33,858 bases of DNA from Candidatus Yonathbacteria bacterium (lineage in GTDB: Bacteria > Patescibacteriota > Minisyncoccia > Phycocordibacterales > UBA1550), in NCBI GenBank assembly GCA_016215205.1, contig JACRKU010000003.1, positions 1 to 33,858 of the forward strand, read 5' to 3'. The position numbers and the translations under genes were made by a program. Below are positions 8,404 through 32,103 of this stretch, piece after piece (within the stretch, counting starts at the first letter, position 1; the number at the start of each line of letters is the position of its first letter). The notes under the pieces were generated by a model, which was not told the DNA's origin, did no database searches, and saw only the letters and a program-made list of their open reading frames with translations.

Positions 8404-11400
8404 TTAGTTAGTAATAACCGATGTTTCTGTTGGGTAGTTGTAGATAAGAGTTCCAGTGATACCGTTTACACCACCAACCATATCATTCCACAATAACGAT
8501 GCGGCTGCGCCGAGCTTCGTAGAAAGCGACATCGTGTTTACTGCGCCAGATACGAGAGATGCGGTGTTGTAGATTCTGAAGGTCTTTGAAGTACCTGCAG
8601 GAATCAAGTAACCGCTGGTGATGGTAATAACGGAATCATTACCCGGAGTAACTGACGTGTTGGTGGAAGCAATTGTAGTTCCATCAGTACCCTTCACAAC
8701 GTAGGAAGTCGTGGTTGAAGCAACCAATACAGCCCCCGTTGACGTTACGCTAATTGGCAATGCAGTGAGCTTTACATCACCTGCGGCATCAGCCGTAACG
8801 GTAATTTCAGCAAGTTTTACAAGGCCATTGAGAAGCGTGTCACTTGAATCAGTGATCGTTACCGTTGGCTTTGTTCCAACCATCGTAAGCGTGTTAGAAG
8901 GAACTGCAGAGAACGAGATCAACCCAAGAGGGGTTCCAATCGTAGTAGATGCCCACGTTACCATAAAGTTCTGATTGTCCGTAACCGTTGCAATGGTTCC
9001 AAGACCTGCTACTACAGTAGCTGGACTTGATGTAGCACCGATTGCAGTGATTACCATTCCAACCTTAGGAGTTGAGCTTGCGATAATCGCAAGTGCGGTT
9101 GTAGCACCAGCTGCTGGCGTAGGACCACCACTATACGTTCCGATTGCCTGAGCTGTACCAACATTCGTTGAAGTTGTCGTACCACCGATTGTGTACTTCA
9201 TGTAGGTAAGATTCAAGACAGCCGTCGTATTTGACGTTACCCCGTTCACACCTACTGGAGCAAACGTAGCACTTGCCGTTACGTTCAAACCAGCTGAGCT
9301 GTTAGGAACGGAAAGAGCAAGACCTGTGAGGTAAGCAACGTTGTTCACTACTGGAGCGCATACGCCACCTACACAAACCTGTGTAATTGGGCTTGTTGAA
9401 GTTCCGGTAACAAGGTACTTGAGCTCAGAGATTGTTGCCACACCGTTTGTAGCGACAAAGTTGTACTGAGCAACCCCGAGGTTAGAAGAACCACCAACAA
9501 CAAACTGTGCTGCAAGCGAGCTTGGAGCAGGGTTAAGCGTTGGAGCGTTAGAAACTGAACCTGTCTGAACCGTAAGTGTCTGACCTGCTGTTGCAGAACT
9601 TGGGGTCAACGTCACATTTGAACTTGATCCCGTTGCTGTAGGAAGAAGTGTTGATGAATACGTACTCGTAGATGTTGCAGAACCGAGGTCAGCCATTACG
9701 TCAATTGTCTTACTCTGCCCTGGAGCGAGAGTGAAGTTAACTGAGAAGTTGTTAGCACCAAGAGCTGGGCTGATTGGCGTTGAGCCGGAACCAGACGTCT
9801 CTGTAGTGCGCAAGTTACTCAAGTTTGTAATAACACCTGTTGTGCTTACTGCAACCGCGAGGTTTGTAACACGAACTGACTCTGATGTGCTTGTGTTCTG
9901 GAGAACATACGAACCCAACTTTACGTTAGCCGTGTTTGGATTCACTGTTTGCGCAGAAGCATAACCAGCATTCTGCGCAATACTAAGCGCGCCAGTTGCT
10001 ACCGTCAAGCCCGTTGTTGCAACTGCTGCTGTAGGAACATTAACCAAGGTAGACGATGTCTGACCCTGACCGTAGTTCGTACCAACGTTCAAAGTAGCAG
10101 TTACGGTACCTGCAGTGTAGTTTGCATTCCCAGCCGTCTGAAGATCAGCACGTACTTCAAGAGTTCCTGAAGTGCCCGCTGAAACGATAAGTGACGAACC
10201 GAGCGAGAATACAATTTGAGTACCTGACGTACCTGCTGCGAGTGAACCAACTTGAGCGCCATCGTAATAGAGGGCTACGTTGTTGATTGTCGAAGAAGCA
10301 GGTGTCATAGATGTAAGAGTTGGCGTCACTGAAAGTGATGAAACCTTTACATCTTCACCGTATGCCTGAAGTTTGAACTTACCAATAACTGCGCCTGTTG
10401 CTCCGCCCGTTACCGTAGTAAACGAGTTGAACGAAGGGTCAATTGTTGTTGTAATCGAACCGGCATTGATACTCATCGTACCGCCTGCAGATGCAGTAAA
10501 CGTAGACAATGCAACGTTTACACCAAGCTGTGAATCGGTAAGAATGAGGTCACCTGAGTTCTGAAGAGAGAACGATGCCGTGCGGCTTGAACCTTTCATA
10601 ATATCCGCGCGTACTTCAACTGTTGAAGCACCCGTGTTCAATGTGACAGGAGCTGAACCGAAATCAAACGCAAGAAGATTCGTTGCTGAATTGATTGTTC
10701 CTGCTGTGCCCACTGCCGTGCCGTTCACATAAAGCTTGATGTTTGCAAGAGCATCAGTCGTAGCTGACCCAATGTACTTGAATGTCGCGCCTTTAAGCAA
10801 AACTGAGCGTGATGTTACAGAAACTGACTGTGACCAGAATGTGTATGCCATTGTCCCAGCATTAACATTGGCTGCCGCTGCCTGTGTTCCTGAAATACTA
10901 ACTCCTGCCATGGTACCTGCAGATGCAACACTCATGAGATTTCCTGCAATACTTGCAGTAGTCATTGAGGTAGCGCCCGTAGGTGTGTAGCCAGTAAGGG
11001 TTACACCGACAATCTGACCTCCGGTGCTTGCGGCAATATCGGCCTTCACTGAAAGTGTGAGTGAGCCAGTGACTACAAGACCGAGGTTGTTGAAGGTGAT
11101 AACACCGTTGGAATCCACCGAAGCGCCATCAGATACGCGCGCATTCCCCTGGAAGAGGTACACGTTTGAAAGTGTGGTGTTTGATGAGATGCCAGTGCGC
11201 TGGAGTTTCACTGTTGAAAGTGTGCCATTGCCAGTGAACGTAAAGTGTGCGAGATCAGCAGTTGCCTGTCCAGCCACTACAGCTGATGCTGCAGGGTTGT
11301 CGTTAGCAAGCATTACTGAAATCGGACCTGACGTTGTTGTGGTCGCGGTTGTCGCGGTTGTCGCGGTTGTTTGTGAACCAGCGCATGACTGACCTGTCGT

Positions 11401-11823
11401 TGGGCTAAAGCCAACGTTTGAAGTACATCCTGCAACTGTTGATGTGGTGGTTGTTGTACCGCCCATCGTGTTCAACTTTGCACGAGTAAGCGCGCCAACG
11501 AAACCCGTACCTGCTGTAAGGCCAGCTGGTGCAAGAGTGTCTGATGCGTACTTATTCTGGAACTTGATAACTGCAGCTTTTGTTGCAGGACCAAAGGTTG
11601 AAGTTTCATTCCCTGGTGAACCTGCGCCGGTTGCTACAACCTGCGTATCAGCGCTCATGTTCAAAACCATTTGAAGGTTCTTTACATCAGCACCTTTGCT
11701 GCCTTGCTTCAAGTTTGTTGTGAATGTGTAAGCTGATGCTGTTGCAGCGAATGCAAAAGCGGCAACTACGCCAACGAAACCTGCAGCAATTTTTGCAGAC
11801 TTTGATGAAATAATTTTATTCAT
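8404..11823 (-). CDS. Large secreted surface-layer-like protein with N-terminal peptidoglycan-binding domain
   Basis: 1139 aa from MNKIISSKSAKIAAGFVGVVAAFAFAATASA (signal peptide); PG_binding_1-like 'LKQGSKGADVKNLQMVLN...FGPATKAAVIKFQNKY'; Thr/Ser/Ala-rich beta-type repeats. Confidence 0.85.
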   Translation of the reverse strand: MNKIISSKSAKIAAGFVGVVAAFAFAATASAYTFTTNLKQGSKGADVKNLQMVLNMSADTQVVATGAGSPGNETSTFGPATKAAVIKFQNKYASDTLAPAGLTAGTGFVGALTRAKLNTMGGTTTTTSTVAGCTSNVGFSPTTGQSCAGSQTTATTATTATTTTSGPISVMLANDNPAASAVVAGQATADLAHFTFTGNGTLSTVKLQRTGISSNTTLSNVYLFQGNARVSDGASVDSNGVITFNNLGLVVTGSLTLSVKADIAASTGGQIVGVTLTGYTPTGATSMTTASIAGNLMSVASAGTMAGVSISGTQAAAANVNAGTMAYTFWSQSVSVTSRSVLLKGATFKYIGSATTDALANIKLYVNGTAVGTAGTINSATNLLAFDFGSAPVTLNTGASTVEVRADIMKGSSRTASFSLQNSGDLILTDSQLGVNVALSTFTASAGGTMSINAGSITTTIDPSFNSFTTVTGGATGAVIGKFKLQAYGEDVKVSSLSVTPTLTSMTPASSTINNVALYYDGAQVGSLAAGTSGTQIVFSLGSSLIVSAGTSGTLEVRADLQTAGNANYTAGTVTATLNVGTNYGQGQTSSTLVNVPTAAVATTGLTVATGALSIAQNAGYASAQTVNPNTANVKLGSYVLQNTSTSESVRVTNLAVAVSTTGVITNLSNLRTTETSGSGSTPISPALGANNFSVNFTLAPGQSKTIDVMADLGSATSTSTYSSTLLPTATGSSSNVTLTPSSATAGQTLTVQTGSVSNAPTLNPAPSSLAAQFVVGGSSNLGVAQYNFVATNGVATISELKYLVTGTSTSPITQVCVGGVCAPVVNNVAYLTGLALSVPNSSAGLNVTASATFAPVGVNGVTSNTTAVLNLTYMKYTIGGTTTSTNVGTAQAIGTYSGGPTPAAGATTALAIIASSTPKVGMVITAIGATSSPATVVAGLGTIATVTDNQNFMVTWASTTIGTPLGLISFSAVPSNTLTMVGTKPTVTITDSSDTLLNGLVKLAEITVTADAAGDVKLTALPISVTSTGAVLVASTTTSYVVKGTDGTTIASTNTSVTPGNDSVITITSGYLIPAGTSKTFRIYNTASLVSGAVNTMSLSTKLGAAASLLWNDMVGGVNGITGTLIYNYPTETSVITN
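11342..11368. repeat. Three perfect 9-bp tandem repeats in the surface-protein linker
   Basis: GTCGCGGTT x3, encoding a TTA-type tripeptide repeat (TTATTATTA). Confidence 0.85.
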
Positions 11824-12241
11824 ATTTAATAGTAATTTTCTAATCGCACATGCGAACTTAATTTGGCTTCGACTAAGATGCCAATTGTTCGCGAATACTA
11901 AGTGAACTAATTCTGTCGTTTTGTCGGTCATGCGGTAGTGCTTCGACCACTCGGGTCGAGGCCATGGAAAACTGAAAATGCACCGTCTTGTGTGATGCGA
12001 TTTCCTATGCAAGACCCGGTGCGAAAAGATTTCATAAAGGACCGGCCTTTGGCCCAAATTTCTTAAGGCCGGTCCTTGGGTGCAAAAAATCTTTTCGCAC
12101 CGGATCTAGTTTTCAATGGACTCTCCCCTTGCTTGCAATCTATCGTAAGCCGGGAGCTTTCTATTTAATTGGCAACAACAATTAGAACATCGTTGTTACG
12201 CCTAAATCCAGTGCCGAGTATTTTTACCCAGCACTGAACTT
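11824..12241 (-). promoter_or_regulatory. Long structured 5' leader of the surface-layer-like gene
   Basis: Several stem-loops between the candidate TATAAT (12248-12253) and the ATG (11823), including 12209-12236 and 12016-12103. Confidence 0.6.
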
Positions 12242-28626: not shown

Positions 28627-31600
28627 TTACTTTTTCAAAAAAAATGCGAAAGAGATGCCGTTTATATCAATGGCTTCACCCGGAGCTTCTCCGAATACAA
28701 CCTCGTGAACAAGTGCGGTCTTTTTTAGTTCATCCATAAATTCTCTCACAATATCACGGCCCTCGTCGGTGGTTTTAATATGAAGAGTAACAATATCCGA
28801 TGGATCAAGTTTAATCTCTTTGCGGAGCTCTTGAATACTACGGAGTAGATCGCGAAACTGTCCTTCGCGTTTAAGCTTGGATGTGATATTCGTATCAAGA
28901 ATCACGTCTTCGGGGATAGCGCCGTCAAATGAGACTTCTTTCACATTTATTTCGTCCTCAATGAGAGAGATGTATCCATCCTTGTCTTTGAGTGATGAAT
29001 CTTTAATCGTAAGACGCGCGAGCGGTTGACGAACTTTTATCCCCGCCTTTGCGCGCACTTCAAGGGCGAGCGACACGGCATTGCGCGCGATAGCCATATA
29101 TTTGAGTATTTGCTTGTCTGGCTCTGTGGACGATGGCCACTTTTCAAGGTGCACGCTTTCTTTCTCTCCTCCCGCGCGCAGATAAATATGGTCCGCGAGA
29201 AACGGCATTACCGGTGCGAGTAATTTTGAGAACTCAATAAGGACTGTGTGTGTAGTTGCGAGAGCGGACGCGCGGTCATTCTCGTTTTCAGACTTGAATC
29301 GGTCGCGCGAACGACGAAGATACCATGTCGAAAGATCGTCCACAAAAAGGCTGAGCGGTTTCACCGCGCGGTCAAGCTCATAGGCATCAAACGACTGAGA
29401 CATCTCGAGCGTAATCTCAGCAAGGCGCGCGAGTATCCATTGATCAAGGATATTTGGCGCACCAGCCGCCGTACCGCCATCCTTTTTGTAAAGCTCATAA
29501 AATGAGAGAACGTTGGACAAACGCATAATAAATTTCTTTACCACTTCATCTGCGCCACGCCCCGAAAAAGCGAGGTCTTCAGCATGCACGATTGGTGATG
29601 CGAGCATATAGTAACGCATCGCGTCGGCTCCATACTGGTTCAAAATATCCTGCGGGTCCGGATAGTTTTTTCGGCTCTTTGACATTTTTTGTCCGTCTTC
29701 CGCAAGCACCATGCCGTTCACGATAACATTTTTAAACGGCGCCTTTCCAAAAAGTCCGACGGAAAGAACCATAAGGGAGTAAAACCATCCGCGCGTTTGA
29801 TCGACGCCCTCGGCAATGAAATTCGCAGGAAAATTTTTTTCAAAAAGTTCCTTATTTTCAAACGGGTAATGAAACTGCGCATACGGCATTGAGCCGGACT
29901 CGAACCAGCAATCAAACACATATGGCACGCGGGACATACGTCCGCCGCATGTACATGACACTTCCACCGTATCTATGTACGGCAAATGAAGGTCAAATTC
30001 AAAATCGGCATTGTGCGGGAACGGCGCGTAGTCAATATCAAGCACCTCGCCCGTTGCAATAAAATCTTCGCGGTCGCCGCGCATTGAGGCAGACTCGGGG
30101 GCGGTCGCGCCGCGCGATCCGGAAGCGACCATCCATACCGGATATTCGTGCGTTACGATCAAAATAGTCTTTCCTTTGTATTCGTTTTCAAGCTGTGATA
30201 CGAGGTCCATCACGCGTCGTTTTACATCAAGGAGATTTTCCCCTCCATTCGGGCGCTTAGTAATCTTTTCCGCAACAGAAGCAAAATGTCCGCGATATAG
30301 GGCGATTGGTTTCCCGTCAAAAACGCCCGTATCGATTTCTTTGACGCGCTCGTCGACGATAATCTTTCGCGTGTCAAAACCAATCACCCCGGCGACAATT
30401 TCCGCAGTTTGCTTAGCGCGCACAAAAGGCGAAGTGATTATGATGTCAATCTCCTCTTCTAAAAGTTTTTTACCGGCCTTCTCCGCCGAAACGCGCCCTT
30501 TTTCCGTCAAGCTATATGAAGCGCTTCCGTCGATTTTTGAGCTCACAATACCGCGCGCATTGCTCTCGGCCTCGCCGTGTCGCATTACGATATACTTGTT
30601 GCCGGACTTCTTTGTGTGTTCGGCAAGCTCCGCGCGCGAGCCGAGCACTTTGCGTTCACCGCATTCTCCGCACTCCCACACAGGAATAGGCGCGCCCCAA
30701 AAACGCGAACGAGAGATAGCCCAGTCGCGCGCTCCTTCAAGCCATTTTCCAAAGCGCCCGTCCTTCATATTTTTTGGCACCCATGAAGTGCCGGCATTTT
30801 CTGAAAGCAAGTTGTCTTTAAGCGCGGGCACTTTTACAAACCACGACTGCGCCGCGTAGTTGAGGAGCGGTGTGTCGCAACGCCAACAATGCGGATACGC
30901 GTGAATTATTTTTTCTTTTGAAAATAACGCCCCTGTGACAGCAAGATGTTTGATAATTAAAATATCGGTCGCTTGATGTCCATCTTTTTCCTCTGCCTTT
31001 GGTTTTACTGAAACGCCTGCGAAGTCGCGGACTTCTTTTTTCATTGTGCCATCCATCCCCACATGCTGAACGAACGGCAAATTTTCGCGCGCGCCAAGAG
31101 CCATATCGTCCTCGCCAAACGCAGGCGCGATATGCACCACGCCGGTGCCGCTCTCCATTGTTACAAATTCCGCACCATATATTTTCCATCCGTTTTCGCG
31201 ATTTGGAAGTGTGCCCTGCGACGCGTAATAGTCAAAGACGGGTTTATATTCCGTACCAATGAGACCCGCGCCAGTAATCCGCTCAAGAACCGTATGCTCT
31301 TTGCCCGCAAACACAGTTTCCACGCGCGCGGCCGCGAGGATATATTGTTCATCCCCCATTGCCACCTTTGCGTATTCCTCGTCGGGATTTACCGCAAGCG
31401 CGACATTGCCGGGAAGCGTCCATGGCGTCGTTGTCCATGCGAGAATATATATTCCGGGGTCCTTCGCAAGTTCAAACTTTACCGTCACCGAAATATCCGT
31501 GATATCTTTGTATCCGAGCGCGATTTCGTTGTTTGAAAGTGTCGTCTCACACCTCGGGCAAATATGCATTGACTTGAATCCTTGGTATACGAGCCCTTTT

Positions 31601-32103
31601 TCATAAAGCGTTTTGAACGCCCACCACACGCTCTCGGTGTAATTTGCGTCCATCGTGCTGTATGAATGCTCCATATCAATCCACCTGCCGATGCGTGGAA
31701 TCATTTTTTTCCATTCAGTATCATAACGATAGACCGAACTGCGGGCCGCCTCGTTAAATTTTTCAACACCATAGGCCTCGATATCTTTTTTATGCCCGAG
31801 CCCAAGTTCCTTCTCGATTAAATTTTCAATGGGGAGTCCGTGGCAATCCCAACCCCACACGCGACGCACATAGCGCCCGCGCATCGTTTGGTATCGCGGA
31901 ATTGCGTCTTTTATGGTGCTGGCTAGAATATGTCCGTAGTGCGGAAGCCCCGTCGCAAAGGGCGGACCGTCGTAAAAAATAAATTCCTCGCCGCCTTTCG
32001 TTTGCTCAAGCGATTTTTCAAAAATATGCGCCGACTGCCAGCGCGCAAGGGTTTCCTCCTCGCGTTTTGCGATATCCGAGAGTTTTCGCTCTGGTTTATT
32101 CAT
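28627..32103 (-). CDS. ileS: Isoleucyl-tRNA synthetase with an inserted histidine-phosphatase domain
   Basis: 1158 aa; 'FYDGPPFATGLPHYGHILAS' HIGH-type motif, 'GWDCHGLPIE', editing-domain 'TTTPWTLPGN', 'KMSKSRKNYPDP'. Residues encoded at about 30000-30600 form an RHGE histidine-phosphatase domain. Confidence 0.96.
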   Translation of the reverse strand: MNKPERKLSDIAKREEETLARWQSAHIFEKSLEQTKGGEEFIFYDGPPFATGLPHYGHILASTIKDAIPRYQTMRGRYVRRVWGWDCHGLPIENLIEKELGLGHKKDIEAYGVEKFNEAARSSVYRYDTEWKKMIPRIGRWIDMEHSYSTMDANYTESVWWAFKTLYEKGLVYQGFKSMHICPRCETTLSNNEIALGYKDITDISVTVKFELAKDPGIYILAWTTTPWTLPGNVALAVNPDEEYAKVAMGDEQYILAAARVETVFAGKEHTVLERITGAGLIGTEYKPVFDYYASQGTLPNRENGWKIYGAEFVTMESGTGVVHIAPAFGEDDMALGARENLPFVQHVGMDGTMKKEVRDFAGVSVKPKAEEKDGHQATDILIIKHLAVTGALFSKEKIIHAYPHCWRCDTPLLNYAAQSWFVKVPALKDNLLSENAGTSWVPKNMKDGRFGKWLEGARDWAISRSRFWGAPIPVWECGECGERKVLGSRAELAEHTKKSGNKYIVMRHGEAESNARGIVSSKIDGSASYSLTEKGRVSAEKAGKKLLEEEIDIIITSPFVRAKQTAEIVAGVIGFDTRKIIVDERVKEIDTGVFDGKPIALYRGHFASVAEKITKRPNGGENLLDVKRRVMDLVSQLENEYKGKTILIVTHEYPVWMVASGSRGATAPESASMRGDREDFIATGEVLDIDYAPFPHNADFEFDLHLPYIDTVEVSCTCGGRMSRVPYVFDCWFESGSMPYAQFHYPFENKELFEKNFPANFIAEGVDQTRGWFYSLMVLSVGLFGKAPFKNVIVNGMVLAEDGQKMSKSRKNYPDPQDILNQYGADAMRYYMLASPIVHAEDLAFSGRGADEVVKKFIMRLSNVLSFYELYKKDGGTAAGAPNILDQWILARLAEITLEMSQSFDAYELDRAVKPLSLFVDDLSTWYLRRSRDRFKSENENDRASALATTHTVLIEFSKLLAPVMPFLADHIYLRAGGEKESVHLEKWPSSTEPDKQILKYMAIARNAVSLALEVRAKAGIKVRQPLARLTIKDSSLKDKDGYISLIEDEINVKEVSFDGAIPEDVILDTNITSKLKREGQFRDLLRSIQELRKEIKLDPSDIVTLHIKTTDEGRDIVREFMDELKKTALVHEVVFGEAPGEAIDINGISFAFFLKK

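Follow-up and report, generated by a model that had tools for sequence, protein, structure and literature searches.

The isoleucyl-tRNA synthetase (IleRS) encoded in the window, i.e., the whole stretch of 33,858 nucleotides from a Candidatus Yonathbacteria bacterium that was analyzed here, contains a branch-1 histidine phosphatase of the PhoE/PspA/CobC-like kind within its zinc ribbon. Nearly every member of the Paceibacteria/Parcubacteria, a large assemblage of very small bacteria that have not been cultured, has a synthetase fused in this manner.

The ileS gene and its product

The ileS reading frame (28627-32103, minus strand) is unbroken and encodes a protein of 1158 amino acids that scores 871 bits against the equivalog model TIGR00392 (ileS, cut-off 621 bits). 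Matches to Pfam tRNA-synt_1 flank the insert on both sides and Anticodon_1 follows further on. The protein is a type-2 IleRS with the HXGH and KMSKS signatures and with editing as well as anticodon domains, and it is closer to IleRS2 (8c8u, 773 bits) than to IleRS1 (1ffy, 325 bits; 8c9e, 313 bits). The whole protein was modelled by AlphaFold2 with 69 relatives at a pLDDT of 91.4 and a pTM of 0.84, and Foldseek returned Priestia megaterium IleRS2 (8c9d) as the top PDB match of this model, with a target-normalised TM score of 0.83. The features of the gene, in the order of translation, are the following:

28627-32103, minus strand: ileS, type-2 IleRS with inserted phosphatase, 1158 aa (open reading frame list, TIGR00392, Foldseek)
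31930-31941, minus strand: HXGH signature (HYGH, aa 55-58; sequence and alignment)
30904-31506, minus strand: CP1 editing domain, approximate limits, aa 200-400 (matches the solved IleRS editing domains 1wk8, 1udz and 1ue0)
30661-30672, minus strand: first Cys pair of the second zinc ribbon, C478-x2-C481, upstream of the insert (sequence; aligns with the CxxC of 8c8u)
30016-30612, minus strand: histidine-phosphatase module, aa 498-696, 199 aa (phmmer alignment to 8c8u; AlphaFold2 pLDDT 95.9)
30115-30591, minus strand: Pfam His_Phos_1 match, aa 505-663 (Pfam search)
30577-30582, minus strand: R508-H509 of the RHG motif, H509 being the expected phospho-acceptor (kept in 123 of 123 rows with letters)
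30418-30420, minus strand: catalytic R562 in SPFVRAKQTA (kept in 123 of 123 rows with letters)
30337-30339, minus strand: E589, general acid/base, in KEIDTG (kept in 122 of 123 rows with letters; Asp in the ValRS L074)
30148-30150, minus strand: catalytic H652 in VTHE (kept in 123 of 123 rows with letters)
29947-29955, minus strand: second Cys pair of the second zinc ribbon, C717-x-C719, downstream of the insert (sequence; 8c8u alignment)
29674-29688, minus strand: KMSKS motif, aa 806-810 (alignment)

The HXGH signature is replaced by a swapped GXHH in 34 of 123 fused relatives (26 GIHH, 5 GLHH, 3 GVHH), the window protein itself having HYGH. In IleRS2, GXHH confers hyper-resistance to mupirocin (PMC10485003); that paper names neither Patescibacteria nor Parcubacteria.

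In the gene order, argS comes before ileS, and after it come a recO-like gene, a gene for a DUF11-domain protein, glyS, genes for an M16-like protease and a putative transporter, and metG. Four synthetase genes (argS, ileS, glyS and metG) thus lie on one strand between 20302 and 33715, with recO and the DUF11-domain protein in between. Rfam yielded no match to an RNA element upstream of ileS. Elsewhere in the window, an open reading frame of 1217 amino acids (8404-12057) has neither a Pfam nor an NCBIfam match.

Position and fold of the insert

In the phmmer alignment with P. megaterium IleRS2 (8c8u), residues 12-497 of the window protein correspond to residues 11-478 and residues 697-1080 to residues 480-868, so that these two blocks leave residues 498-696 opposite a single residue and thereby delimit the insert. 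It is situated between the Cys pairs of the zinc ribbon, after the editing domain and ahead of the remaining half of the catalytic core. An earlier note on this DNA had located a complete histidine phosphatase at 30000-30600, between the HIGH and KMSKS parts of the synthetase; the limits agree with ours within about 16 bases and the site can now be narrowed down to the segment between Cys 478/481 and Cys 717/719.

The domain search of the 1158-aa protein that the same note had proposed matched both His_Phos_1 and tRNA-synt_1, with PF00300 recognizing the insert at an E-value of 7.6e-31 and 107.7 bits against a cut-off of 21.7. Structure prediction, likewise proposed there, yielded a phosphatase fold for the insert and an IleRS2 for the whole protein. 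Modelled alone, the insert reaches a pLDDT of 95.9 and a pTM of 0.93, and its best Foldseek matches (4ij6, 6s2q, 4qih and 1h2e; query-normalised TM scores of 0.74-0.79) share the alpha/beta phosphatase fold. They comprise the phosphoserine phosphatase PspA, glucosyl-3-phosphoglycerate phosphatase, PhoE, a phosphatase of the riboflavin pathway and CobC, and sequence searches with the insert agree in returning histidine phosphatases. The presence of a phosphatase domain inside IleRS is hence confirmed by Pfam, by sequence searches and by AlphaFold2/Foldseek alike. In the model of the whole protein, both junctions are predicted at pLDDT values of about 90 or above and N502, located just ahead of the phosphatase domain, is invariant among 62 relatives; on the basis of this confident prediction and the invariance of N502, the module seems to be held rigidly and not via floppy linkers.

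Conservation of the catalytic residues and co-inheritance

The catalytic set of branch 1 is complete in the insert (R508, H509, R562, E589 and H652), just as the earlier note had read it from the sequence. All five residues are kept in 121 of 123 aligned fused proteins, the exceptions being the ValRS with a Glu to Asp exchange and one protein that is unaligned. These residue counts refer to 123 fused proteins plus the window and to rows with letters at the respective position; those for R508 and H509 are partly biased by the RHG..N pattern through which 80 of the loci were found, those for R562, E589 and H652 are unbiased. Pairwise differences average 61% for the insert (about 39% identity) and 48% for the core. 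As the catalytic positions are near-invariant while the insert as a whole differs so much, they appear to be under selection, and on the same grounds a dead domain was rejected.

These observations also bear on the idea of a non-catalytic structural or tRNA-binding insert that merely resembles a phosphatase. Synthetases often gain appended domains without catalytic function, and the phosphatase of the ValRS L169 no longer has its catalytic Glu; however, retention of the catalytic five in 121 of 123 proteins with a mean insert identity as low as about 39% speaks against this explanation, which we consider decidedly improbable.

Distances between inserts correlate with those between the respective synthetase cores (Mantel r 0.56; none of 1000 permutations gave a value as high). 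Among near relatives, identity amounts to 0.59 for the insert, 0.58 for the C-terminal domain, 0.68 for the editing domain and 0.79 for the catalytic domain. Given the correlated distances and a rate resembling that of the C-terminal domain, the phosphatase domain appears to have largely travelled with its synthetase, keeping its catalytic set.

Distribution of the fused synthetase

A profile spanning the junction detected the fusion in 124 of the 129 near-complete genomes of the order, the five genomes devoid of a junction-spanning match being G043, G068, G086, G151 and G200. In the phylum-wide sample, it was found in all six genomes that represent the class outside this order, and in 12 of 136 genomes outside the class. 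This occurrence across the order, class and phylum samples rules out that the insert is limited to the genus of the window organism. Within that genus, a His_Phos_1 match was obtained for 14 of 16 genomes, and in 13 of these a match resides in a frame of about 1126-1193 amino acids; in the remaining one (G014), the match falls into a 757-aa frame at locus L008, which is limited by the contig and likewise aligns as this IleRS fusion. Eleven genomes of the order are without any PF00300 match. The ileS gene is missing or broken in nine of them, although the broken copy of G119 has kept the linker located behind the phosphatase. Among the eleven, G043 and G069 alone possess an intact ileS free of the insert. 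Together with the five near-complete genomes that gave no spanning match, these two indicate that the domain is dispensable.

A single scan covered 84,980 named species genomes; its best 80 loci, found through the RHG..N pattern, were all located inside IleRS, and the nearest among them stem from Candidatus Yonathbacteria and Nomurabacteria. One apparent carrier outside the group, labelled Spirochaetia (L099, QYPD01000003.1), has a genome of about 400 kb and an IleRS that groups with the Parcubacterial ones, and is therefore probably a mislabelled bin. An open frame of 25,277 amino acids around ileS in G169 turned out to be masked sequence (14,000 N per 20 kb).

Hundreds of independent genomes share the identical junction, among them AP024682 (L135, one of the best 80 loci), the record of which is titled a complete genome. 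An assembly chimera or two separate genes can thus be dismissed; together with an annotation error, a chimera retains a practically negligible probability and nothing was found in its favour. The survey of the insertion point suggested in the earlier note therefore bears out very strongly its expectation that the architecture may recur in related Parcubacteria, and its view that two adjacent genes are not involved is upheld by the recurring junction and the single continuous frame of 1158 amino acids.

Variants and repeated captures

Among the synthetases examined, captures of a phosphatase were seen only in IleRS and ValRS. In six ValRS (L166, L167, L168, L169, L175 and L176), the domain is found at the homologous place and a further one (L163) contains two phosphatases. 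The ValRS form is rare and occurs in one of 59 near-complete genomes of the order. Two IleRS of about 1470-1480 amino acids (L164 and L165, family f153) possess two phosphatases in tandem, the second copy deriving from another phosphatase lineage according to the tree. Still another arrangement is present in genome G442, where an IleRS (L162) combines a GNAT acetyltransferase with a phosphatase at a second site after KMSKS (aa 666-764 and 920-1068) and which also encodes the two-phosphatase ValRS L163.

When 106 phosphatase domains were placed in a tree, those inserted in IleRS formed a weakly supported set (62 rows, SH-aLRT 93) that includes two ValRS copies, and most ValRS copies as well as the second tandem copies group among stand-alone phosphatases. 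We read this topology as reflecting a single early capture by IleRS that was followed by two or more further captures. G136 and G185 carry a phosphatase in both IleRS and ValRS, each of its own lineage.

The inserts of two IleRS (L201 from G218 and L202 from G076) have kept the catalytic residues, but the lid that separates the catalytic Glu from the GE motif is deleted. The same two proteins have lost the zinc-ribbon Cys residues as well.

Fusions of another kind are represented by L172, L173 and L174, in which the phosphatase domain is joined to a D-2-hydroxyacid dehydrogenase (phosphoglycerate dehydrogenase-like in L173). The phosphatase part of L173, the one that was profiled, is of the dPGM type. 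These fusions possibly link two steps of serine metabolism or glycolysis.

Comparison with known enzymes

The window protein has the HXGH signature, CP1 editing domain, zinc ribbon, KMSKS motif, anticodon domain and C-terminal domains in common with the IleRS2 from P. megaterium (8c8u/8c9d), Thermus thermophilus (1ile) and yeast (8wnd); it differs in having 199 residues where 8c8u has one, and none of the solved IleRS that were matched contains a phosphatase. PhoE (1h2e/1ebb), PspA (4ij5), CobC (6nru), the riboflavin-pathway HFP (9mmh) and the glucosyl-3-phosphoglycerate phosphatase Rv2419c (GpgP, 4pz9) resemble the insert in fold and full catalytic set. Unlike the insert, all of these are stand-alone proteins, and Foldseek aligns them with it at about 20-28% identity. 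The scores of the insert lie far under the tested NCBIfam cut-offs for stand-alone branch-1 equivalogs (dPGM_arch 94 vs. 225 bits, CobC 65.5 vs. 162.9 bits and PspA 62 vs. 350 bits), so that it cannot be assigned to cofactor-dependent phosphoglycerate mutases, CobC or PspA; since the listed phosphatase equivalog matches all stay below their cut-offs, specificity is not transferable from any of them.

Two known architectures are comparable. NCBIfam NF040702 describes an IleRS with an N-acetyltransferase (GNAT), i.e., another IleRS bearing an extra catalytic domain, and L162 unites GNAT and phosphatase. The domain is a different one, however, and the window IleRS is not a member of this family (320 bits vs. 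a cut-off of 1999, no Pfam GNAT match). In the RNase H/CobC-type acid phosphatase fusion (PRK07238), a phosphatase of the same branch is covalently joined to an enzyme acting on nucleic acids. That fusion is end-to-end, in contrast to an insertion within an essential synthetase, and the window protein scores 82 bits vs. a cut-off of 326.

Proposed function

Based on the conservation of the catalytic residues, catalysis is likely, and we strongly infer that the insert is a working phosphohydrolase acting in cis. The earlier note had suggested that the module may hydrolyse a phosphorylated product connected with aminoacylation, or may regulate the enzyme. A catalytic role in cis is likelier than a passive one in view of the invariant catalytic residues and of captures that recur in one and the same pair of synthetases, and the separate-lineage domains carried by IleRS and ValRS in G136 and G185 favour a local role in cis. 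The data show that a branch-1 phosphatase was long ago inserted into the post-editing zinc ribbon of a type-2 IleRS, that nearly the entire Paceibacteria order, as sampled, has since passed it on together with the synthetase and with its catalytic set intact, and that similar domains were recaptured by ValRS. In the explanation that we regard as the best overall, albeit with rather less than even confidence, catalysis would proceed via a phospho-histidine intermediate on H509, with R508 and R562 binding the phosphate and E589 acting as acid/base. The phosphatase would serve its own synthetase in cis, and our best guess for the substrate would be a phosphomonoester bound or made by the synthetase, most plausibly of the nucleotide type (AMP, an adenylate-like inhibitor or a side product). 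By removing it, the phosphatase would clear the synthetase and IleRS would gain a second hydrolytic module beside the editing domain.

Our apportioning of substrate classes is a rough judgement. A nucleotide-type ligand of the synthetase comes first as a possibility, the terminal phosphate of tRNA and a free metabolite unrelated to aminoacylation are both unlikely, a phosphoprotein, including the synthetase itself, is less likely still, absence of catalysis is improbable and any other class very improbable. A nucleotide substrate is confronted with the objections that hydrolysis of AMP would be wasteful and would leave the restriction to Ile and Val unexplained, and that the lid-less L201 and L202 would suit a larger substrate (tRNA or protein) at least equally well.

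A larger substrate is envisaged if the phosphatase strips a 2'-/3'-phosphate (or 5'-phosphate) from damaged bound tRNA and thus enables charging. The CP1 region of class I synthetases handles the 3' end of tRNA, and it is in the CP1 zinc ribbon, adjoining the editing domain, that the insert is found. The lid-less variants would fit a large substrate and the verified captures are all in tRNA-binding, editing synthetases. On the other hand, we know of no established RNA-end phosphatase activity in the histidine phosphatase superfamily, and tRNA-end repair, too, leaves the restriction to Ile and Val unexplained. Such a function is, in our estimation, rather unlikely.

Alternatively, the domain might act on a phosphoprotein, either the synthetase itself or a partner, and so keep IleRS active. 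The Ser of KMSKS would be one such target; in class I synthetases other than this one, it is phosphorylated by toxin kinases of the HipA-like kind. Placement in cis within an essential enzyme would be in line with this proposal. Enzymes that dephosphorylate phosphoproteins and phosphohistidine belong to the superfamily (PMC6282199; PMC7948535), and the lid-less L201 and L202 resemble SixA, which represents the minimal core fold (PMC6282199). However, the solved structures closest to the insert mostly belong to phosphatases of small molecules, only 68 of the 121 rows with letters at position 5 of KMSKS have Ser there, and near-universal presence in the order suggests housekeeping rather than immunity to toxins. 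We judge a phosphoprotein substrate of this kind to be quite unlikely.

It is also conceivable that a housekeeping phosphatase or mutase is simply parked on an abundant essential protein and has no link to aminoacylation. The insert is the sole His_Phos_1 domain in the window's genome, and the same applies to nine of 14 PF00300-positive genomes of the family sample. Many genomes, however, own further stand-alone phosphatases, enolase is absent from 18 of 41 sampled genomes of the order, most of them with a fused IleRS, and the parallel captures by ValRS at the homologous site as well as the tandems in IleRS argue against chance. This explanation, too, appears unlikely. For the window's genome, a glycolytic phosphoglycerate mutase within IleRS can be rejected, as enolase, iPGM and a PF01676 (metalloenzyme-type) mutase were all absent from this genome, though the insert is intact.

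Returning to a phosphatase that serves its own synthetase, a wider formulation would be that the IleRS of a bacterial class has acquired, beside the classical editing domain, a second, chemically different hydrolase, which in cis clears a phosphorylated ligand or repairs tRNA in the course of charging and which ValRS re-acquired independently. We consider this formulation doubtful; if true, it would constitute a step of translation quality control or self-defence that is not known elsewhere.

Implications

A search of the open-licence literature found no paper describing this architecture and the word phosphatase is absent from a catalogue of synthetase domains published in 2024 (PMC11580382). 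A phosphatase inside IleRS thus looks undescribed, and a domain database may well list it without comment. Both the synthetase and the fold are known as such; what had not been described is the presence of this fold at this place in the synthetase, and it extends over a bacterial class. Aminoacyl-tRNA synthetases rank among the best-studied enzymes, yet in a bacterial lineage of very large size the majority of species appear to possess one with an extra catalytic domain. Severe reduction of the genome has not eliminated the phosphatase domain, and species that are divergent and number in the hundreds retain it; its function is therefore probably a necessary one. The insert provides a marker for the IleRS of this group, and the fused enzyme points to an unfamiliar chemical step tied to translation in uncultured Patescibacteria.
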